Virus record (IMG/VR): IMGVR_UViG_3300017733_000015
Coordinates: 1 to 37,866 of that record
DNA length: 37,866 nucleotides
Strand: one strand, 5' to 3'
Source of the DNA: a virus
This document shows positions 8,672-37,866 of the stretch, in pieces. Below the pieces are notes generated by a model. It was not told the DNA's origin. It worked only from the letters and a program-made list of their open reading frames with translations, and ran no database searches. Made by a program: the position numbers and the translations under genes. Each line of letters opens with the position of its first letter. The stretch's first letter is position 1.

Positions 8672-9331
8672 TTAACCTAAAGCAATAGCCAATGCTGTAG
8701 CATCAGCAAGTGAAGTTTCACCATCAGTACCTGCACTTCCTTGTGCACCAGTGTTACCAACTGGAATGCCAAGTGTGAAATTTAAAGTAGCAGCTTGAGT
8801 TGTACCTGAGTTTGTAATAGCAACTGTAGCACTACTACCAGCACTCAAAGTGTTTGTCGTTACAGATCCAACAGCTACAGTAGCTCCATTAGAATCTACA
8901 TAACTTTTAGTAGCTGCATCTTGAGCTGCTGATGGATTAGTAACATTTTTAATACGTCTGCTTGTTGCATCAAATTGATCAGTGCTATCTTTTACTAAAG
9001 CATCACCAGCAATATCAATAGACTCTTGAGCCATATTAAAAGCTTGAATACTATCGTTATCTAGATCTGATTCCTTAAAGACAGAACCAGCAGCATAATC
9101 AACGAGTCTTGTAGATTGACTTGTAGCTCTTCTTATTTCTATTACGGCATCTTGAGCTGGAGGTGTTCCAAACTGTACTTGATTAGAACTAGGAAAAGTG
9201 TAGTGAGTTGTAATTGTCTTAGTTACTCCATCAACCTTTACGATAACATCATCAGTTGATCGGTAACTAAAAGGTACACTGAATGTAGTGGTACTGTTAT
9301 TGCCAGTATAACGATTTAAAGCAAATGCCAT
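8672..9331 (-). CDS. Tail fibre, T7 gp17 N-terminal domain type
   Basis: The first 140 residues match the T7 tail-fibre attachment domain: MAFALNRYTGNNSTTTFSVP, YRSTDDVIVKVDG, VIEIRRATSQSTRLVDYAAG and the AQESIDIA helix. This part binds the fibre to the tail tubes. The protein is only 219 residues against 553 in T7, and ends soon after a short GNTGAQGSAGTDGETS collagen-like stretch. It therefore lacks a tip domain, which the separate adaptor-type fibre proteins encoded downstream probably provide. This modular split is the most notable feature of the tail genes. Confidence 0.9.
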   Translation of the reverse strand: MAFALNRYTGNNSTTTFSVPFSYRSTDDVIVKVDGVTKTITTHYTFPSSNQVQFGTPPAQDAVIEIRRATSQSTRLVDYAAGSVFKESDLDNDSIQAFNMAQESIDIAGDALVKDSTDQFDATSRRIKNVTNPSAAQDAATKSYVDSNGATVAVGSVTTNTLSAGSSATVAITNSGTTQAATLNFTLGIPVGNTGAQGSAGTDGETSLADATALAIALG

Positions 9332-22470: not shown

Positions 22471-24426
22471 CTATCTTACTGGACAAGCTCCTGTTGCACA
22501 TTCATCATCCTTTAGCTCTTCTAATGAATTTGCCGAGTTAATATCTATAGGTTCTAATTGTTTTACATACTCATCGTGTTCTTCTTTAGTTACTACTTCT
22601 TGCGGTAAGTAAGGATAACCAAGGTCAGAAGCTGATTTTGTAGGGTCATTTCTGTAAAGAAAAGAAACACCTATGTAAATATCCCAATTCTTAAGTAACC
22701 ATTCTATTATTGCTGGAACTTCTTTTTTATCATACGAGATTGTAACTGAGCAGTTATGGTCAACATAGTTTTCCATTAACAGTTTATATCTATCTAGTTG
22801 ATCAACTGCTGCTTCCAAGTTTACTTCTTTACCATCTACTTCTGTAAAATCAACATTGTCATGACAAACAGGAAATGTAACTAAAACACTTGTATCATCA
22901 TAAGGATTATCCATAACCTTGTAGTTACTTTGTTTTAATTTTTTTACAAGAGGATCACTTTTAGAAAAGTTAATGTTATTAAATATGTATTTACCTAATG
23001 GTTTATGTACTCCCTCAGTAGTGTCCATTATTTTAGATAAAGTTCCACTTGGCTTAACAGTAGTCACAGCTTTAGGTCTTGGCATATTAAGTTCTTCAGC
23101 CATACTTTCAGCTCCCTTAACTGCTATTTCTTTTAATCCTTTAAATGATTTAGCAGAGTCACAATGTTCCCAACTTACAATTCCAGTTAGGCCAACTCCA
23201 CATAATCGTAAGAAATTATTAAGCTCATGCCATGTGTCAGCTAACACTCCATCTTTTAGATTAACACAAGTTTGTCTATAGTTAGCTCTTGCAATTAAAT
23301 AAATAGCTCTAAGTAAACCCTCCCAATCACCATTAAATTTTCCTAAATCACACTCGACTAAGTTACAAAAATTTTTGTTACCTAAAAGTATTTCTGCACA
23401 GGGGTTGAGTCCTTTAAACCATGCTGCTTTTCTTTTTGCTGTTTCAGCATTTATAAAACCAGGTTCTGAACCTCCAGCTTCTTCCATTAATTTAAATATA
23501 TAATGTAGTTCTGCTTTTGTAGGTTTTTGATGAAACACTAATGAGTTATTAGATTGGCTTCTTTGTGGGTTGTCATTGAAATGATCTTTCTTAGCTTTAG
23601 CAAAATCTTCCCACTCAGGACTATTATAATCTAATAAGCATATCTCTGCTGATCGTCTACTTGATAGTACAGTTCCTACCCAATTAATAATGTCCAAAAT
23701 ATCCAAATGGCTAAGAAGATTACCAGACCTCCTATTAAGTATGTCAACGATTTGTAAAAATGCTTTTGACAAAAGTTTATCGCCTTGAGAAATCCAACCA
23801 TAACCTGAGAGTCTCGAACCCTCTGGCCTAATTTCAGAGAAGTCAATAACCAGTTTTTCACAGTCATACTTACCAGCAAGAAGTTTTCCAAGACCTTTGC
23901 ACCAACTTTCGGCACTATCCCCAATACTAACTTTCCAAAGTTTTTTATCTTTGTCATAAAATTCAATGTTGTCATTTCTACCTCCTTTTGTTTTTCGTTT
24001 TGTTCGGACAACTTCAACATTATGAATATAGTTTTGAAATCCATTTAAAGTTCCAGTGACTGGTTGGAAACCCACACCACACCCCTGAAGCAATAACCAG
24101 AAAGCATCCACTATATCATAAACTGTTTCTACTCTTAGAAAGCTACAATTAAACTGAGAAGCTTCTCTTTTTTTAGAGACTTCAGTTCCACCTAACCATA
24201 GTGTTCTACCAGCTACAGATACTTTTCTTTCTAGAAGTAACTTTTTTAATTCAGTAAGCTCTTGTGACTCTTCATAATTTAAATCATGTTTCTTAGCTCT
24301 AATCCATAACCATCTTTGATGACTAATAACTCTGCTTATAGTTTCTTTCCATGTTTCAAATTTGTCATTATCTAATGGTCGATTATAAGTTCTTCTTGTA
24401 ATTACTTCTGCTCTCGTAGATACCAT
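22471..24426 (-). CDS. nrdJ: Ribonucleotide reductase, class II (adenosylcobalamin-dependent)
   Basis: A 651-residue monomer-type reductase that makes deoxyribonucleotides using cobalamin. Reductase motifs are visible: FNCSF with Cys94, a QGCGVGF loop near 114-120, NPCAEI with Asn341, Cys343 (thiyl position) and Glu345, then FCNL with Cys354, and PKAVTTVKPSGTLSKIM later. The end, ECATGACPVR, is a CxxxxC pair like the reducing arm of the Lactobacillus enzyme (739 residues). The enzyme recycles host-DNA nucleotides or raises dNTP supply. It lies between DNA metabolism and head genes and begins directly after the preceding stop codon. Confidence 0.93.
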   Translation of the reverse strand: MVSTRAEVITRRTYNRPLDNDKFETWKETISRVISHQRWLWIRAKKHDLNYEESQELTELKKLLLERKVSVAGRTLWLGGTEVSKKREASQFNCSFLRVETVYDIVDAFWLLLQGCGVGFQPVTGTLNGFQNYIHNVEVVRTKRKTKGGRNDNIEFYDKDKKLWKVSIGDSAESWCKGLGKLLAGKYDCEKLVIDFSEIRPEGSRLSGYGWISQGDKLLSKAFLQIVDILNRRSGNLLSHLDILDIINWVGTVLSSRRSAEICLLDYNSPEWEDFAKAKKDHFNDNPQRSQSNNSLVFHQKPTKAELHYIFKLMEEAGGSEPGFINAETAKRKAAWFKGLNPCAEILLGNKNFCNLVECDLGKFNGDWEGLLRAIYLIARANYRQTCVNLKDGVLADTWHELNNFLRLCGVGLTGIVSWEHCDSAKSFKGLKEIAVKGAESMAEELNMPRPKAVTTVKPSGTLSKIMDTTEGVHKPLGKYIFNNINFSKSDPLVKKLKQSNYKVMDNPYDDTSVLVTFPVCHDNVDFTEVDGKEVNLEAAVDQLDRYKLLMENYVDHNCSVTISYDKKEVPAIIEWLLKNWDIYIGVSFLYRNDPTKSASDLGYPYLPQEVVTKEEHDEYVKQLEPIDINSANSLEELKDDECATGACPVR

Positions 24427-31275: not shown

Positions 31276-33720
31276 TTATGAAAAAAAGAACTCAGATTCT
31301 AATACCTGATCTATAATTAGATCTCCTTTTTTTGGTGGCATCGGAACTTCATCCTTTTTTGATTCAGGAAGCATTGAAATAATGTCATTCCTAAAATCCA
31401 TTAACACATCATGGCTCTTGTAGATATCAACAAAAGTTGCTCTACAACATTCACCAAGACGTTCTACATCAGCAGCTAGTGTTCCATAACTATCGTGCAC
31501 CATAGCAAAATCTTTTATACCCTCTGCAAAAGCAGTGCATAAAGTCATTTGTAAATGGCAACTATCAAGAGCATGCACCCAGTTAGGTGAAACTCCTGCT
31601 GCTTGTTTTCTTTTATCCCACTTACTATTAAGATTCTCATTTGAAACTTTAAGTTGTGGTCTAAAAACTTTTCCCATTAGTTTTGTTTGTATTTGTAGTG
31701 GCTTGTAGTTTTCGTAAGCTTGTTGCACTGGAAAACCCATAGGTGTATACCACACTATAGGAATACCCTCGGCACTGGCAATTCGTGCGACATCTTGTAA
31801 CCATTTCATTACCTTAGATGCAGCTTCAATTACATCACTGGCCACCTGCCACATAATTTTTGCAAGGTAGCTACAAGCTTTTAATAGCTCATCACCAAAA
31901 GGGTGCATGTGACCTTTCTCTTTTCTTTTTTGAACTATTTCATTTACAAAATCAGTCCAGGAATATTGTCTACTGCCATAGCATATTGTCATGGTAGGTC
32001 TTTTAGCTATACTTCTATCAACACCAAAATCTAACCACTTTTTAGCAAAGGGGTTTTCTTCTTTTTGTAATTTCAGTATTACATTGTCTGCAACCTTTTG
32101 ATAAATATCAGCAGGTACTTCACTTGGAATCATATTAACTTGTTTGCCAGTTACTAAGCTTCGTATTGATGCACTAAAGTGCTGAAGACCTGAACAAGTT
32201 GCATCCATAGATATTGGCAGTGAACTTTTGTATTCTGTTCCTTGATCTAAAAAATTTCTCCATTCTAAACAAAATGCTAAAAACTGCCAGGGGTCATCTG
32301 CATCCATCCAAAATTTATTGTTGTAAGGATCTTCGGCTGAAGCTTTTATGTTATCACTATTTTTTTCAACAAAATCTATTCGATCTTGAAAGGAGCACTT
32401 ATCATATCCAAAACAATTAGAGCCATGAATTGCAAGATAGCATGCACCTTGCTCACCTAATGATTTTGCATTGGCAAAAGTTAGTAATGCTTTTTGATAA
32501 TCAGCTCCTTGTGGATTTAAAAAGGCAGTAGTTGCATATAACCTACCTCTAAAATCTAATTGATAAGGAAAGTAAAACTTATAGGTGTAAAACTTATCAG
32601 CTAACTCAAATGTTTTTGCACATTGTATCTGCTTTGATTTATGTCTTTCTACCTCACCATACCACACTACCATCTGAGCTTTATACTTTCTAAGTATCTC
32701 TTTGTTTTTTAATGACTCTTCACTTGGTTTAATTGGTTTCTCATCTTTAAGATCACCAGGAATTGATCCAACAGTATGACCTTTCTCCCAAAAATGTTTT
32801 TGTACTTTTAAAATTTCTCTATTAATAACAAAAGGTGTTTCCTGACAAATATTTATAGAATCATAAACACCAGTCATATCTTTCTCAGATAACTCTTGAA
32901 GATATTTATTGTTTTTTGTTTTAACAACAGTAAGTGGTGGTAGATGGTTAGAGTAATAGCCACCTCCATAAGGTGACTGCCATAACTTTGGTATTACAAC
33001 TGTTGGTAATCTTTCAGGATGTAATATTGAACCTCTAAGTTTTTTTTCTTTTATCCATTTAATACATTTATCAGTTGGACTAATAAATTTTTGTACCTTT
33101 TTACCTTTTCTAAAATCTAACTCTGAAAATAAATCACTTACTAATTCTACTATGACATATAAAGTTCTTCCTACTCGGAGTTTATCTTTTACAGTCCACT
33201 CTATTCTTTGGAGACCATCTCTTTGTGATGCTTCTAGGTATTTTCTGCGACTATATTCATATCCTGCATTTCTACTTTTTAAATCTGAATAAATTTTAGT
33301 AAACAATTCTGGGTTTTGTTCTGCCATAGCTTCACAATTTATTTCGTCTAAAATGTGTTTGCCAATTTTTATAAATGTAGATGTAGCAGGTTTTCTTCTA
33401 GTTGCATTGTTAAGTAAAGTCTTCAGTGTAATAATTGCTGCTTTATCAGGTTCTATTAATTGTAAGTTCTCAATAGCTTGTGCTCTTAGCACTGGACTGT
33501 TCTTTGCTTTTTCATTGGCTATATACTCATCAAGTTTATCAGCCACTGGTTGTATGTAATGTTTAACTAAATACTTGGCATAATCTGTAGTTGCTTCCTG
33601 ACCTCTGTCTTTTTTCTTTTCGTTGTTTTTCTCATATCTGTTGATGCCTAGCACTCGACTCTCAAGCTCTAAGTTTATTTGTTCCTCAAGGTTTACTTGC
33701 TCTTTTATCTTATCTGCCAT
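31276..33720 (-). CDS. Single-subunit RNA polymerase (T7 gp1-like)
   Basis: An 814-residue polymerase (T7: 883) that transcribes the middle and late genes. Catalytic residues: Asp506 in SMDATCSGLQH, Lys573 and Tyr581 in AKRPTMTICYG, Asp743 in MVHDSYG, equivalent to T7 Asp537, Lys631, Tyr639 and Asp812. PYQLDFRGRLY is at 385-395. The promoter-recognition loop equivalent is about 672-712. The C-terminus ends FFFS, resembling the aromatic FAFA foot of T7. The leader is TATAAGGAGTAGTAATG. Its promoter sites cannot be predicted from the loop by eye. Confidence 0.97.
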   Translation of the reverse strand: MADKIKEQVNLEEQINLELESRVLGINRYEKNNEKKKDRGQEATTDYAKYLVKHYIQPVADKLDEYIANEKAKNSPVLRAQAIENLQLIEPDKAAIITLKTLLNNATRRKPATSTFIKIGKHILDEINCEAMAEQNPELFTKIYSDLKSRNAGYEYSRRKYLEASQRDGLQRIEWTVKDKLRVGRTLYVIVELVSDLFSELDFRKGKKVQKFISPTDKCIKWIKEKKLRGSILHPERLPTVVIPKLWQSPYGGGYYSNHLPPLTVVKTKNNKYLQELSEKDMTGVYDSINICQETPFVINREILKVQKHFWEKGHTVGSIPGDLKDEKPIKPSEESLKNKEILRKYKAQMVVWYGEVERHKSKQIQCAKTFELADKFYTYKFYFPYQLDFRGRLYATTAFLNPQGADYQKALLTFANAKSLGEQGACYLAIHGSNCFGYDKCSFQDRIDFVEKNSDNIKASAEDPYNNKFWMDADDPWQFLAFCLEWRNFLDQGTEYKSSLPISMDATCSGLQHFSASIRSLVTGKQVNMIPSEVPADIYQKVADNVILKLQKEENPFAKKWLDFGVDRSIAKRPTMTICYGSRQYSWTDFVNEIVQKRKEKGHMHPFGDELLKACSYLAKIMWQVASDVIEAASKVMKWLQDVARIASAEGIPIVWYTPMGFPVQQAYENYKPLQIQTKLMGKVFRPQLKVSNENLNSKWDKRKQAAGVSPNWVHALDSCHLQMTLCTAFAEGIKDFAMVHDSYGTLAADVERLGECCRATFVDIYKSHDVLMDFRNDIISMLPESKKDEVPMPPKKGDLIIDQVLESEFFFS

Positions 33721-33928
33721 TACTACTCCTTATAACTGACATTAAATACAACCATATAGGCATTAAAATCATCGGTTGACATAGAGACAAGGCTATTTTG
33801 TTGGGAAGGAAATCAAAGAATGCCGAGGTGCAAGGAAGATGCTTAAGATTTTGAATCCTTTGCATAAAATCAACCCTTGCTCACTGTGGCTTTCAAAGTA
33901 GCCAATGTCACTATGTCACCAAATCGTG
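33721..33928. other. Candidate attP region between integrase and RNA polymerase genes
   Basis: This 208-base gap has no gene. At its centre, GATTTTGAATCC (33847-33858) is identical to 35011-35022 in the tRNA-Leu gene, where it is the anticodon loop and part of its stem. Around it lie inverted repeats: ATGC (33839-33842) with GCAT (33862-33865), and GCAAGG (33830-33835) with CCTTGC (33875-33880). Four RTGTCAC direct repeats lie to the right. A core with inverted binding sites plus short direct repeats beside int is how tyrosine-recombinase attP sites look. In cyanophage P-SSP7 the tRNA-Leu-matching att sequence is also just downstream of int. Confidence 0.5.
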
Positions 33929-33943
33929 TCACTTTAGTGTCAC
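33905..33943 (+). repeat. Four RTGTCAC direct repeats
   Basis: ATGTCAC at 33905 and 33913 and GTGTCAC at 33926 and 33937 are in the same orientation, 8, 13 and 11 bases apart. Two lie in the gap and two run across the end of the integrase gene, including its TGA stop. Possible roles are arm-type integrase binding sites next to the candidate attP, or operators for the RNA polymerase gene. The half GTGTCA also occurs in the palindrome before the marR gene, so a shared regulator is worth considering. Confidence 0.6.
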
Positions 33944-34964: not shown

Positions 34965-35051
34965 TGGTAGAGGTGGTGGGACTTGAACCCACAAGAACCG
35001 AAGTTCACTGGATTTTGAATCCAGCATGTTTACCAATTTCATCACACCTCC
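34965..35051 (-). tRNA. tRNA-Leu (anticodon CAA), intact, CCA encoded
   Basis: The 87-base sequence folds completely: acceptor GGAGGTG with CACCTCT (first pair G-U), D stem ATG/CAT with a GGTAAA-type loop, anticodon arm CTGGA-TTCAAAA-TCCAG with CAA at 34-36, long class II variable arm GAAC-TTCG-GTTC, T arm GTGGG-TTCAAGT-CCCAC, discriminator A and an encoded CCA. The long variable arm confirms leucine type; it reads UUG codons. The first base is the G of the marR TAG stop. Either it overlaps an attachment site or it replaces a host tRNA interrupted by integration. Confidence 0.95.
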
Positions 35052-35413
35052 TAATGTATACAAGAATTTAATTTTGTATGTATTCTCTCAGCTAATCTCT
35101 CACCTTTATATGTAAGTTTGACTAGCTTGTTTCTCCTATCAGTAGGGTCTTCAAAAGACTCTACAAGCTCGTGACCTTTCTCTCTATGCCTATTTATTGC
35201 AGATAAAGTTGCAACATTTCTAGACAGTGTTGATTGTGGCATATTTAAGTTTACTACTAGTTTCTGCATTGAGATACTCTCACTTGCCATAGCAACATTT
35301 AAAAATGTTCTCATTGTCTGTACTAGCATTTCTGAGTCGTATTCTTGAAAACACTGATAAATGTCATCAAGACAAGCAAAACTTTTATTTTGCTTTACTT
35401 TTTTTGTATTCAT
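35051..35413 (-). CDS. MarR-like winged-helix regulator
   Basis: A 120-residue protein whose helix-turn-helix reads SMQKLVVNLNMPQSTLSRNVATLS (about 48-71), followed by the wing EDPTDRRNKLVKLTYKGERLA (about 91-111), matching the MarR 'DxRxxxLxLTxxG' signature. N-terminal and C-terminal helices would make the dimer. AGAGGAGTAATTA precedes its ATG. It sits beside tRNA-Leu and int, where temperate phages keep lysogeny control genes, and no CI-like repressor is visible. It may therefore regulate lysogeny or early transcription. A palindrome GTGT-TATG-ACAC lies 16 bases upstream. Confidence 0.85.
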   Translation of the reverse strand: MNTKKVKQNKSFACLDDIYQCFQEYDSEMLVQTMRTFLNVAMASESISMQKLVVNLNMPQSTLSRNVATLSAINRHREKGHELVESFEDPTDRRNKLVKLTYKGERLAERIHTKLNSCIH

Positions 35414-35567
35414 TAATTACTCCTCTTGGTGTTATGACACACCTCATTTTATGTATACCTAGAATATACTCTCTAGTGGATATCTTTTCCACAAAAAACA
35501 AATTCGAATTTTTTACATTGTATTCCACATAAAAAAACCAGAAATATAAATTAAAACACATAAACAT
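35385..35567 (-). CDS. Small hypothetical, hydrophobic N-terminus, 60 residues
   Basis: The ATG at 35567 has GGAGGAGATTAC upstream and gives MFMCFNLYFWFFYVEYNV, then FFVEKISTREYILGIHKMRC and a Lys-rich end. It overlaps the marR gene by 29 nt. The first 15 residues are strongly hydrophobic and aromatic and could insert into membrane. Very AT-rich sequence makes Phe/Asn/Lys peptides by chance, so this may be a leader region rather than a gene; the good ribosome site is the main support. Confidence 0.45.
   Translation of the reverse strand: MFMCFNLYFWFFYVEYNVKNSNLFFVEKISTREYILGIHKMRCVITPRGVINEYKKSKAK
35429..35440. promoter_or_regulatory. Candidate operator before marR
   Basis: GTGT-TATG-ACAC is a 4-bp inverted repeat with a 4-base centre, ending 16 bases before the marR ATG. 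A second, GTGGA-N7-TCCAC, is at 35476-35492. MarR proteins bind palindromes near their own promoters, so autoregulation is a natural hypothesis. Both are short, so chance is possible. Confidence 0.3.
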
Positions 35568-35607
35568 TTTTGTAATCTCCTCCAAGTAGTGTTCTACATA
35601 AGTTCTA

Positions 35608-35799
35608 CTAAAAAAGTGCATCATAGTAAATACCCTTTTCTAATAATTTTTTATATTTGACTGCTTCTAAATAATGTTTATCAGCAACCATGTCCAAACA
35701 CAATACTGAGTAATTTCTCGCCAGTATTAAGTTATCATCATATGCCTTTTGGCAGCTTATGATTCTTGTGTCAGAGTCAGCACCAGTATACTTCGTCAT
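35608..35799 (-). CDS. Small hypothetical protein, 63 residues
   Basis: The ATG at 35799 follows GGAGGAGAGTG; a GTG one codon earlier is an alternative. The peptide begins MTKYTGADSDTRIISCQKAY and continues DNLILARNYSVLCLDMVADK and HYLEAVKYKKLLEKGIYY. It is soluble, probably helical, with two cysteines. It overlaps the upstream small acidic gene by 23 nt. No family is recognised. Confidence 0.62.
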   Translation of the reverse strand: MTKYTGADSDTRIISCQKAYDDNLILARNYSVLCLDMVADKHYLEAVKYKKLLEKGIYYDALF

Positions 35800-35914
35800 C
35801 ACTCTCCTCCTCTGTTATATCTTCATCTTCAATTATGTATTTATAACCTTTAGGCATATTTTCTACATCAACAACACACCCTCCCTGGACTTTTATTATA
35901 ATTACTTTACTCAT
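35777..35914 (-). CDS. Small acidic hypothetical protein, 45 residues
   Basis: MSKVIIIKVQGGCVVDVENM leads to PKGYKYIIEDEDITEEESDD and EVYWC. The opening 'K V x G G V V x x V x N M P x G' is a style I know from small phage proteins of unknown function. The leader is AAAAAGGAGTAACTG. It is the first gene after the tandem promoter-like repeats. Acidic composition is shared with several other early proteins here and might mean host-protein binding. Confidence 0.65.
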   Translation of the reverse strand: MSKVIIIKVQGGCVVDVENMPKGYKYIIEDEDITEEESDDEVYWC

Positions 35915-35930
35915 CAGTTACTCCTTTTTA

Positions 35931-35972
35931 TTTCTCATAAGTATTGATATTATTTTGTTTCTCATAAGTATT
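35931..35972 (-). promoter_or_regulatory. Tandem 15-base repeats, candidate promoters
   Basis: TTTCTCATAAGTATT occurs exactly at 35931-35945 and 35958-35972, in the same direction. In the gene direction it reads AATACTTATGAGAAA. They lie directly upstream of the early gene at 35914. Similarity to the capsid-upstream sequence (AATACTTTTGCGAA) suggests phage-polymerase promoters. Alternatively they bind a regulator. Confidence 0.4.
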
Positions 35973-35989
35973 ATGTTATAACCTCCTTA

Positions 35990-36020
35990 GAGCCAGGAGA
36001 ATTAGTTACTCGCCTGGCTC
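35990..36020 (-). terminator. Strong hairpin in early intergenic region
   Basis: GAGCCAGG (35990-35997) pairs perfectly with CCTGGCTC (36013-36020) around 15 bases. In the gene direction it follows the 36080 gene by about 60 bases and precedes the tandem repeats. There is no T tract on either side; TAAGGAGG follows instead. It may be an early-transcript terminator of weak type or an RNA processing site. It is clearly GC-richer than its surroundings. Confidence 0.5.
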
Positions 36021-36079
36021 ATAATTTATTGGTTAATGGTTTTCTTCCCCACTCTTACAAGGTAAATTAAAATGATATC

Positions 36080-36313
36080 TTAATCTTCCTCCCTTATATG
36101 TTCATTAATAACACCAAGTATTTTACCAATGTTTGGGTCAATAGATGTTATTTCTAATTCTTCAATAGAATCTTCATCAACATCTAAGTCTTCCCCCATC
36201 CATTGCTGCTCTTCGTCTTTCCAGTCCTTAACATCTTCCTCAGTGCCAAAGGTTACTGTTATTCCTCCATCTTCGTGGACAGTTCTTTTATATATTTTTT
36301 CTTTTTTAGTCAT
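36080..36313 (-). CDS. Acidic early protein, 77 residues
   Basis: MTKKEKIYKRTVHEDGGITVTFGTEEDVKDWKDEEQQWMGEDLDVD reads as a basic start, one or two strands, then a strongly acidic chain (EDSIEELEITSIDPNIGKIL) and NEHIREED at the end. AAGGAGTAAC lies upstream. Highly acidic early proteins in phages can mimic DNA or bind host polymerase or defence proteins, but that is only a possibility here. No family is recognised. Confidence 0.72.
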   Translation of the reverse strand: MTKKEKIYKRTVHEDGGITVTFGTEEDVKDWKDEEQQWMGEDLDVDEDSIEELEITSIDPNIGKILGVINEHIREED

Positions 36314-36347
36314 AATAATGTTACTCCTTTTTTTTAGTTAATGACAT

Positions 36348-36375
36348 AAAAGGAGACCTTAACGAGCTCCCCTTT
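36348..36375 (-). terminator. Terminator-like hairpin
   Basis: On the gene strand, AAAAGGGGAG pairs with CTCCTTTT with a two-G bulge, around 10 bases, ending in TTTT. It lies ten bases after the 36385 gene. It is a plausible weak terminator or attenuator between early genes, less convincing than the one after the capsid gene. Confidence 0.4.
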
Positions 36376-36384
36376 TCAAAATTA

Positions 36385-36543
36385 TTATTTATCATCGGTG
36401 TCATTTAAACTTATATTGTTATTTCTCCTTAGTTGTAATTGGCTTAGTGTATAGCCATATTTTTTAGTTAATAGTTCAGTGACCAGTTGCGGCCTATCAT
36501 TTAGCATTAATAAAAGTGTTTTTTCATTGTTATAATTTGACAT
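36385..36543 (-). CDS. Small hypothetical protein, 52 residues
   Basis: The peptide begins MSNYNNEKTLLLMLNDRPQL and continues VTELLTKKYGYTLSQLQLRR, ending NNNISLNDTDDK. AGAGGAGTGACGCACA precedes its ATG, and it begins seven bases after the stop of the upstream gene. Two short helices seem likely, with a small DNA-binding look (LVTELLTKKYGYTLSQLQL resembles a helix-turn-helix), but it is too short to be sure. No family recognised. Confidence 0.62.
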   Translation of the reverse strand: MSNYNNEKTLLLMLNDRPQLVTELLTKKYGYTLSQLQLRRNNNISLNDTDDK

Positions 36544-36549
36544 TGTGCG

Positions 36550-36795
36550 TCACTCCTCTTCATCAGGGTTAATATGCCTATCTGGAAGTATTTTATCCAT
36601 TCTTTCAGTGTAATCAGATTGTATGAATACATCTGTTTGAATGTCTGGGTTCCAGTGGTCATCAGCCACATCTTTTTCAGCATTTATTTTTGCTTCAGCT
36701 TCTTTTTTAGTCTTGGCTTCAACAATAAACTCTGCAAAGGTAGACTGATTTTTAATAACTCTTACATTCCATTCGTAAATTTTGTTTTTATTCAT
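36550..36795 (-). CDS. Early hypothetical protein, 81 residues
   Basis: MNKNKIYEWNVRVIKNQSTF is followed by AEFIVEAKTKKEAEAKINAE, with VADDHWNPDIQTDVFIQSDY near 45-65 and an acidic end. The beta-helix-beta pattern 'W.V.V......F.V.A.t..eAe..' is like small early proteins in T4- and T7-like marine phages where strands pair around one helix. The leader is TTAAGGAGTAACTAAC. It shares MNKNKI with the 37006 gene's N-terminus. Function unknown. Confidence 0.72.
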   Translation of the reverse strand: MNKNKIYEWNVRVIKNQSTFAEFIVEAKTKKEAEAKINAEKDVADDHWNPDIQTDVFIQSDYTERMDKILPDRHINPDEEE

Positions 36796-36814
36796 TGTTA
36801 GTTACTCCTTAAAT

Positions 36815-37006
36815 TTATTTATCTAGATTATTATTAAAGTTTTTTATTTGTTTAGTTGTTAATTTATTTTTTTGTGTTTGCTCATAAAATTGAGCAGTGT
36901 TAGTTCTATCAATACAAGTTATAGATGAACTTTCAGAAAAGTGGTTAATAACGTCTAAAACCTTTTCTATTTCAATTGTATTAATATCAAGTATAAATCT
37001 AGCCAT
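36815..37006 (-). CDS. Early hypothetical protein, 63 residues
   Basis: MARFILDINTIEIEKVLDVI, then NHFSESSSITCIDRTNTAQF and YEQTQKNKLTTKQIKNFNNNL. It looks like a beta-helix-beta start and a Lys/Asn-rich helical tail. AGGAGGTCGCATA precedes the ATG, which shares a base with the upstream stop. No family recognised. Confidence 0.65.
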   Translation of the reverse strand: MARFILDINTIEIEKVLDVINHFSESSSITCIDRTNTAQFYEQTQKNKLTTKQIKNFNNNLDK

Positions 37007-37455
37007 TATGCGACCTCCTCAGTGTATAACCTTTTATCGTTACTCCATTTATAGGCTAAGTGTTGAATAACATAATCAAGACAAATCGCTTGACCAGTGC
37101 AAGTTCTACCCCACCAAGTCTCATAATCAGTTTCTAATATAGGTTCGTTTAACTCTTTTAACTGTTCTATAAGCCAGTTAGAGCAGACCCAATATTCAAA
37201 AATTTCCTGTTGATCCTCTCCATTATCCTTTAAAGCTTGTAAGTCTTCCTTACAAGTTAAACCAAAGTTAACTATAAGGTCTCCGTCAGTAAAATATAAA
37301 TTGTGAATATCATCATAATGAATAATTTCTTTTTTAAATAATTCATCTACTAGGTATGATTGATTGATATAAATATGATTTCTGATAAAACTTTCTGCGA
37401 TATCTTGCTTAGTTGTATCATCAAGTTTATTAAATGGTATTTTATTTTTATTCAT
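37006..37455 (-). CDS. Early hypothetical protein, 149 residues
   Basis: The largest early gene product. It begins MNKNKIPFNKLDDTTKQDIA, with HIYINQSYLVDELFKKEI, then YFTDGDLIVNFG and EIFEYWVCSNWLIEQLKELN near 95-114, and ends with ETDYETWWGRTCTGQAICLD and a short tail. It is acidic, with Trp clusters and three Cys. The 'YWxVSxWLxxkLxexgEpxxxxxxxxxWGRtttGQ' pattern is one I recall for hypothetical phage proteins of marine and enteric viruses, without known function. Leader: AAAGGAGTAACCAAACT. Confidence 0.75.
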   Translation of the reverse strand: MNKNKIPFNKLDDTTKQDIAESFIRNHIYINQSYLVDELFKKEIIHYDDIHNLYFTDGDLIVNFGLTCKEDLQALKDNGEDQQEIFEYWVCSNWLIEQLKELNEPILETDYETWWGRTCTGQAICLDYVIQHLAYKWSNDKRLYTEEVA

Positions 37456-37574
37456 AGTTTGGTTACTCCTTTTTTAATGTCTAAGACTACCCAAAATTAA
37501 TTAGGTAGTTTCGCTTAATGAAAGCTTATCAATTAGACTTTTTTTGTACTGACAAAACATGCAGCACTTTTTTT
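37456..37574. other. Early intergenic gap with small hairpin
   Basis: No gene is supported here. ACTACC (37486-37491) pairs with GGTAGT (37504-37509) around 12 bases. On the gene strand a TTGTCA about 18 bases ahead of a TGATAA sequence loosely resembles a host sigma-70 promoter, near 37555-37525. Both signals are weak. Confidence 0.35.
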
Positions 37575-37787
37575 TTACTCCTTAACATTAAATATTTTAT
37601 ATTCAATTTCATTTACCCTTGAATCTGGGCATTCGGTGTGATCCATCCCACAACTTGAACAATAAGCTTCAACACTTTTTAAGTGGATATAATAGTGGTC
37701 GCATTCACAATCCCAAAACCTCGAGTCAGTATAAAACTGAGTTTCAAGGCCTTTATTATGTATTTCAAGATAACTTTTATTTGTCAT
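37575..37787 (-). CDS. Cys-rich early protein, zinc-ribbon-like, 70 residues
   Basis: Contains FWDCECDHYYIHLKSVEAYC followed by SSCGMDHTECPDSRVN. Cys pairs at about 27/29 and 44/47, with His and a further Cys close by, would fit a zinc-binding knuckle. Start overlaps the previous stop by one base. Early zinc-knuckle proteins in phages often contact host proteins or nucleic acid. No family recognised. Confidence 0.68.
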   Translation of the reverse strand: MTNKSYLEIHNKGLETQFYTDSRFWDCECDHYYIHLKSVEAYCSSCGMDHTECPDSRVNEIEYKIFNVKE

Positions 37788-37864
37788 TACTCTAACCCCT
37801 TAAGCATACCCATTGCAAAAAAGGCAATGCCTCCTATTGTATAACCAAGAAAAGCTTCTGGCAT
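37787..37864 (-). CDS. 25-residue hydrophobic peptide at window edge
   Basis: MPEAFLGYTIGGIAFFAMGM followed by LKGLE would be a single membrane-spanning peptide with small residues (Gly, Ala) along one face. Its stop overlaps the next ATG by one base. The window ends two bases beyond the ATG, so its leader and any longer N-terminus cannot be seen, and it may be partial. Confidence 0.5.
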   Translation of the reverse strand: MPEAFLGYTIGGIAFFAMGMLKGLE

Positions 37865-37866
37865 TA

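Follow-up and report, generated by a model that had tools for sequence, protein, structure and literature searches.

The 208-bp gap that follows the integrase gene in a T7-like marine phage genome is very likely an attachment site (attP) with a 12-bp core. We consider it probable that this gap (33721-33928) recombines through its core (33847-33858) with a host tRNA-Leu(CAA) gene, and that the tRNA carried by the phage (34965-35051) replaces the host gene that is broken. In the proposed mechanism, the tyrosine integrase would recombine the core with the anticodon arm of the host gene; since only about 12 bp are in common, neither attachment junction would restore the host tRNA, and the phage tRNA-Leu(CAA), encoded between a MarR gene and the integrase gene (int), would take over from it. 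What was demonstrated is the anatomy of the region, its conservation, the combination of a short core with a matching tRNA in other phages, and an integrated relative that splits a host tRNA and carries its own. Recombination of the phage studied here, the identity of its host, the function of the arm-like sites and a requirement for the phage tRNA are inferred.

The stretch analyzed (the window) is a virus record of 37,866 bases that is classed as linear. The contig of a close relative (L002, 1594-2000) bridges both window ends (positions 1 and 37866) with about 407 additional bases, so that the genome is nearly complete at about 38.3 kb and the cut point of the window is arbitrary. Genes for a T7-type single-subunit RNA polymerase and for T7-like replication proteins are present, the T7-like set comprising RNA polymerase, DNA polymerase, primase-helicase, ssDNA-binding protein, endonuclease I, major head protein and terminase, and by its polymerase and replication genes the phage is T7-like (Autographiviridae). 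It would be temperate, a lifestyle that is itself predicted. The nearest named relatives are SAR11 phages, with RNA polymerases at most 41% and capsid proteins about 60% identical. On the minus strand the MarR-type regulator gene is followed by tRNA-Leu(CAA), int, the gap and the RNA polymerase gene (Table 1), and the last base of the MarR gene is the first base of the tRNA. The early region (35060-37866) holds small genes and varies strongly between relatives, with patchy homology from about 34.98 to 37.8 kb. Elsewhere, at 22471-24426, a gene matches ribonucleotide reductase models, weakly including the B12-dependent insertion domain.

Table 1. Features of the putative attachment region and its surroundings (window coordinates).
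Feature	Position	Strand	Evidence
T7-like RNA polymerase, other flank of attP	31276..33720	-	PF00940 E 4.6e-105
Int-RNA polymerase gap, putative attP region	33721..33928	.	95-97% identical in L003, L004, L005, L008; shortened in L006/L007
Additional TGACATT copy, inverted; candidate for an outer arm	33737..33743	.	inverted pair of 7 nt; weak
Inverted arm-like site TGACATAGAGACA, RNA polymerase side	33777..33789	.	92% complementary to 33906-33918
Putative attP core, GGATTCAAAATC on minus strand = tRNA-Leu(CAA) positions 30-41, anticodon arm	33847..33858	-	12-mer match; unchanged in L002, L003, L004, L005, L008
Four RTGTCAC direct repeats, candidate arm-type sites	33905..33943	+	motif count
Inverted arm-like site TGTCACTATGTCA, int side	33906..33918	.	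pairs with 33777-33789
Tyrosine integrase int, 334 aa	33929..34933	-	PF00589 E 2.5e-21; phrog_1 E 2.7e-50
Complete tRNA-Leu(CAA), encoded CCA, proposed replacement tRNA	34965..35051	-	ARAGORN; Rfam tRNA 60.5 bits
MarR-type regulator	35051..35413	-	phrog_9665 transcriptional regulator E 1.3e-26; about 42% identical to annotated MarR of HTVC109P

The core and its flanking repeats

An earlier note on this DNA had placed a probable attP downstream of int, with a 12-base identity to the anticodon part of the phage tRNA. The identity was reproduced: GATTTTGAATCC occurs exactly twice in the window, at 33847-33858 and, inside tRNA-Leu(CAA), at 35011-35022, where it surrounds the anticodon (tRNA positions 35-37). 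It is the sole 12-mer common to the tRNA (both strands) and the rest of the 37,866-base window, and any 12-mer of the tRNA was found in 17 of 5000 dinucleotide shuffles of the gap. All five relatives that retain the gap (L002, L003, L004, L005 and L008) have the identical core; with its 99.98-100% identity to the window, L002 does not count as independent evidence of conservation. In L004 and L005, int is 95% identical and the core unchanged, though both lack the tRNA and the MarR gene, while in L006 and L007 int is 78% identical and most of the gap is replaced.

On the host side, the tRNA-Leu(CAA) of three SAR11-order genomes that were read contains ACTCAAAAT, one mismatch from the core. The exact 13-mer GGATTCAAAATCC was detected in six of 297 SAR11-order genomes, four times in tRNA-Leu(CAA) and twice outside it, so that host-type tRNAs with the exact core, for which the earlier note had proposed a search, exist in four of the 297 sampled genomes. 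The same 13-mer is present in the tRNA-Leu(CAA) of five of 20 tRNA loci read from the wider class and in that of G947, a bacterial genome described below; this arm is common across genomes and does not point to one host. BLAST of the gap against the 297 genomes gave scattered weak matches (best E 0.0015 among the matches listed), and in none of the 30 loci taken from these did the match fall within a tRNA gene. A core of 12 bp is too short for BLAST to detect. Weak matches were likewise obtained for the gap of the related phage MedDCM-OCT-S28-C10 (S28C10) in 58 genomes. Two peptide patterns gave no confirmed relative of the window integrase in genome contigs, pattern scans of viral contigs, aimed at the core and at the 3' end of the tRNA, yielded no contigs beyond the relatives already found, and no lysogen or junction of the window phage was found in the genome contigs searched.

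Two sets of flanking repeats had been described. The four RTGTCAC repeats are present (33905, 33913, 33926 and 33937), the third overlapping the int stop and the fourth lying within the int frame; the window holds 11 copies against 7.7 expected, so that their clustering alone is notable. The inverted repeats GCAAGG/CCTTGC and ATGC/GCAT were both recovered as well, but in the alignment the GCAAGG pair is disrupted in L004 and L008 and counts as weak evidence. A stronger flanking structure is the inverted pair 33777-33789/33906-33918, whose score was reached by seven of 300 shuffles. These candidate arms lie 57 nt and 47 nt from the core, respectively, which is comparable to the arm-to-core spacing of 53-66 nt in the phages HTVC109P, HTVC105P and HTVC121P. 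A similar inverted pair is retained in L006 (5/300 shuffles) despite the replacement of most of its gap. The arms of G947 are marginal (22/300), those of S28C10 and its relative L266 differ in spacing (27 and 62 nt), and by the shuffle test no significant pair was detected in the gaps of HTVC200P, HTVC119P, HTVC201P, HTVC134P, LUZ100 and YIMV22061.

A role of the repeats as integrase arm sites would fit this arrangement. The TGACA-type repeats might instead be MarR operators or transcription signals of the RNA polymerase gene, a reading that is compatible with an attP and that we regard as rather unlikely. It draws on the position of the gap, which also precedes the RNA polymerase gene and has a MarR gene nearby, and on the several related gaps just named in which similar repeats are not significant. 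However, the repeats are inverted and stand on either side of the core much as they do in HTVC109P, HTVC105P and HTVC121P, and L006 retains them while neither a MarR gene nor a tRNA was found in its record.

Core length and tRNA carriage in related phages

The int-RNA polymerase gaps of related phages were used as controls and compared with tRNA genes from 50 loci of three SAR11-order genomes; BB8, ProddE, Pasto, CRP-171, CRP-118 and P-SCSP2 were left out of the comparison with host tRNAs, and L267, a duplicate of S28C10, was not counted. In all 14 phages whose stretch read has no tRNA, the gap includes 23-43 nt from the 5' part of a SAR11-type tRNA, and this match stops at the anticodon arm. 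The tRNA is Leu TAA in HTVC109P and HTVC105P, Cys (antisense) in HTVC201P, Jormungand, HTVC121P, HTVC021P, HTVC022P and HTVC131P, and Arg TCT in HTVC134P, Bylgja, HTVC120P, HTVC309P, S42C7 and S46C10. Whole-genome scans of HTVC109P and HTVC021P detected no tRNA; for the other 12 controls, absence refers to the stretch read or, in the Cys group, to BLAST with tRNA-Cys. No tRNA was found in the stretch read of BB8, ProddE and Pasto.

A different picture was obtained for HTVC200P, HTVC119P, S28C10 and L266, which form one genus-level group. Their gaps hold a core of just 11-12 bp of tRNA-Leu(TAA), and a complete tRNA-Leu(TAA) separates MarR (or the gene annotated in its place) from int. In the stretches of HTVC200P (L268, 1396-1481) and HTVC119P (L269, 1393-1478) this tRNA is unannotated. 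HTVC019P combines a 15-bp tRNA-Cys core downstream of int with a complete tRNA-Cys on the far side of the RNA polymerase gene, at a distance of more than 4 kb from int. This tRNA-Cys(GCA), too, is unannotated (L356 7539-7612; HTVC019P record 8946-9019). When it was used as query, full-length matches among Pelagibacter phages were confined to the two records of HTVC019P itself, while nine relatives, some nearly identical to each other, matched over the 39-nt 5' part alone. Among the pelagiphages compared, tRNA carriage accompanies short cores. The brevity of the match, which the earlier note had counted as a weakness, loses its weight, as short anticodon cores are what goes with a phage-borne tRNA in this comparison.

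Farther afield, LUZ100, YIMV22061 and RHEph21 have a tRNA-Leu near int and anticodon-type cores of 8-10 bp that are individually weak: the 8-bp match of LUZ100 to its own tRNA is not significant (94/200 shuffles), that of YIMV22061 is marginal (15/200), and in RHEph21 GATTTAGGTT, picked with a typed motif, does not match its own tRNA. Lo5R7ANS carries a tRNA-Leu(TAG), and no anticodon core was found in the stretch read.

An integrated relative was identified in a search for T7-like RNA polymerases, in which four of 398 genomes of the phylum had matches (G947, G772, G834 and G664). In G947 the polymerase gene (C7:120359-122827) and an integrase gene (about 161519-162523; product 43% identical to that of LUZ100) belong to a prophage with a tRNA-Leu(TAG) directly before the integrase gene, on the opposite strand. 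A host tRNA-Leu(TAG) is split, its 5' half lying upstream of the polymerase gene and its 3' half downstream of int; the two halves have CTGGATTTAGGTT (13 bp) in common. ARAGORN reported no tRNA at either junction, and joining the host flanks restored a complete tRNA (ARAGORN). At the same locus an intact tRNA-Leu(TAG) was present in nine of nine relatives read, one of them identical over all 85 bases, and some match was also present in 54 other genomes drawn from the family. The tRNA of the prophage is not identical to the host gene split by integration. Of the 57 tRNA matches in G947, ten have class-II size; they comprise three Ser and, for leucine, one CAA, one TAA, three CAG and one GAG tRNA together with that of the prophage, the only Leu(TAG) found. 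No tRNA-Tyr was among the genes identified in this draft genome, so that some tRNA genes, conceivably including a second host Leu(TAG), may have escaped the list. In a draw of 369 genomes of the class, the G947 polymerase found only G947 itself. No int was found in the stretches of G834 and G664 examined. The G772 match lies on a T7-like contig of 44 kb from a bacterial assembly (contig 16; L295 1-15, L296 end) with a 15-bp direct repeat at its ends; these identical ends, and an int that has no tRNA with it in the stretch, suggest that the contig may represent a phage in free or circular form.

The proposal of an attP downstream of int gains support from these comparisons, since its place in the gap, the tRNA-Leu anticodon-arm core and the bracketing arm-like repeats fit the host-tRNA matches in the corresponding gaps of 14 related phages and the integrated element of G947.

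The phage tRNA-Leu(CAA) as a probable replacement

The tRNA-Leu(CAA), the sole tRNA found in the window by ARAGORN, looks functional from its sequence, and by analogy with G947 and a published system it is likely to be a replacement for the host tRNA-Leu. It is accompanied by the MarR gene in four of eight records (the window, L002, L003 and L008), while neither was found in the entire records of L004-L007, which may be fragments. In L003 the tRNA is identical over 87 of 87 bases, compared with 95% for int and the gap and 89% for the first kb of the RNA polymerase gene. The L008 tRNA has 94% identity, not above int (95%) or the gap (97%), and two of its five changes convert a G-C pair of the T-stem to A-U, a compensatory double change. 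The homology that L004 and L005 share with the window stops inside the tRNA, at 34991 and 34981 (about 1926 in L004, about 5953 in L005), leaving remnants of 27 nt and about 17 nt.

These data also bear on the view that the attP is real and the tRNA a relic of imprecise excision after an earlier integration, which we hold to be improbable. A relic would adjoin int, as this tRNA does, could decay as in L004 and L005, and could be no more conserved than its neighbors, as in L008. Against this, the structure of the tRNA is maintained in both L003 and L008, and comparison with 12 SAR11 genomes gave no strong match to it (best E 0.06). Moreover, the matching tRNA of HTVC019P is remote from int, tRNA carriage goes together with short cores among the pelagiphages, and the prophage tRNA of G947 is not identical to the host gene that was broken.

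Still less probable is that the 12-bp match is due to chance and that the phage in fact uses the 3' end of the tRNA upstream of int as its attP, a candidate prompted by the homology break of L004 and L005 inside the tRNA. Among prophages, int genes often lie beside the 3' end of a tRNA gene. This candidate was set aside, as the match to the host tRNA sits in the int-RNA polymerase gap of the pelagiphages compared and the junctions of G947 do so as well; in addition, the MarR gene is absent along with the tRNA in L004 and L005, as expected from a deletion, and the shuffles make a chance match in the gap improbable. The earlier note had named 34965-35051 as an alternative place of recombination; this segment is probably the replacement for the host gene broken by integration and not a rival attP. 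Phage-borne tRNAs that serve translation are widespread, but a tRNA for lytic translation whose anticodon agrees with the core by coincidence is hardly credible here, because TTG, the codon read by CAA, makes up 58 of 760 leucine codons and TTA 358 (19 window genes), so that codon supply is a poor explanation, because just one tRNA was found, and because the agreement of anticodon and core recurs in HTVC200P, HTVC119P, S28C10 and L266 (Leu TAA), HTVC019P (Cys) and G947 (Leu TAG).

Comparison with known systems

Lysogeny that depends on a phage tRNA was defined in actinobacteriophages (Fionnbharth, Cluster L, Gaia; PMC10865867), where cores of about 10 bp lie in a tRNA gene that is not rebuilt and the phage carries a tRNA of matching isotype; Gaia uses tRNA-Leu-CAA with an 8-bp core, and natural tRNA-less mycobacteriophages form clear plaques. 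Like these phages, the window phage has a tyrosine integrase; its putative core of 12 bp would likewise lie in a host tRNA gene that is not rebuilt, and its tRNA would be of the matching isotype, both being tRNA-Leu(CAA) as far as the core identifies attB. Unlike them, it is T7-like and marine, its tRNA lies between the MarR gene and int in the same orientation, and its junctions and its dependence on the tRNA are predicted. L004 and L005 resemble the natural tRNA-less mycobacteriophages of that study, whose discussion (2024) poses the frequency of such lysogeny outside actinobacteriophages as a question and calls for its study.

T7-like cases are partly known already. Prophages similar to Lo5R7ANS, a phage filed in Autographiviridae, break tRNA-Leu(UAG) mid-gene in two strains of Sinorhizobium meliloti and bring their own tRNA-Leu(UAG) (PMC11476347), a case that PMC12429752 ties to the tRNA-dependent mechanism. 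They share with the window phage the T7-like relationship and the own tRNA, and their splitting of a tRNA-Leu is what is proposed for the window phage, but have a soil host and another anticodon (UAG).

Within the ocean, HTVC109P, HTVC021P and others have the same order of MarR, int, gap and RNA polymerase and a host-tRNA match to the anticodon arm in the gap; unlike the window phage they hold 23-43 nt of the tRNA 5' part, from which the host tRNA could be restored, and no phage tRNA in the stretch read. HTVC200P, HTVC119P, MedDCM-OCT-S28-C10 and LUZ100 share the complete tRNA-Leu between MarR and int and the short anticodon-type core (8 bp in LUZ100), but their tRNA is TAA and antisense to int, whereas that of the window phage is CAA and has the direction of int. 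The attP of P-SSP7 and S-TIP37 is likewise downstream of int and matches a host tRNA-Leu; PCR demonstrated integration, int and attP proved necessary in S-TIP37, and stable lysogens were not found (PMC8776855). A cyanophage contig has a 42-bp match to tRNA-Leu of MED4 (PMC3861242), longer than the 12 bp of the window.

For LUZ100, the tRNA-Leu beside int was discussed as a possible relic of imprecise excision, an idea attributed for pelagiphages to Zhao et al. 2019 (PMC10134795). Among the literature matches listed, in which Zhao et al. 2019 is represented through PMC10134795, no claim of tRNA-dependent lysogeny for pelagiphages was found. As a tentative extension, to which we give slightly less than even odds, tRNA-dependent lysogeny may be a switch that is repeatedly gained and lost across T7-like phages including those of SAR11, alternating between a long tRNA-half attP and a short core with a spare tRNA even within a genus (HTVC019P and its nine relatives); for L004 and L005, in which the MarR-tRNA pair is lost and int and core are kept, integration would then be lethal and the integrase a dead end or even a killing device. 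A replacement role of the tRNA would indicate which of the sequenced phages are able to establish viable lysogens, and would account for the failure of the usual long-match searches to find their attachment sites. The tRNA-Leu beside a T7-like int, so far a possible relic (PMC10134795), would gain a testable role as a licence for lysogeny, and the cases described here would extend tRNA-dependent lysogeny from actinobacteriophages toward T7-like phages of the ocean, with G947 as the finished state in a bacterium.
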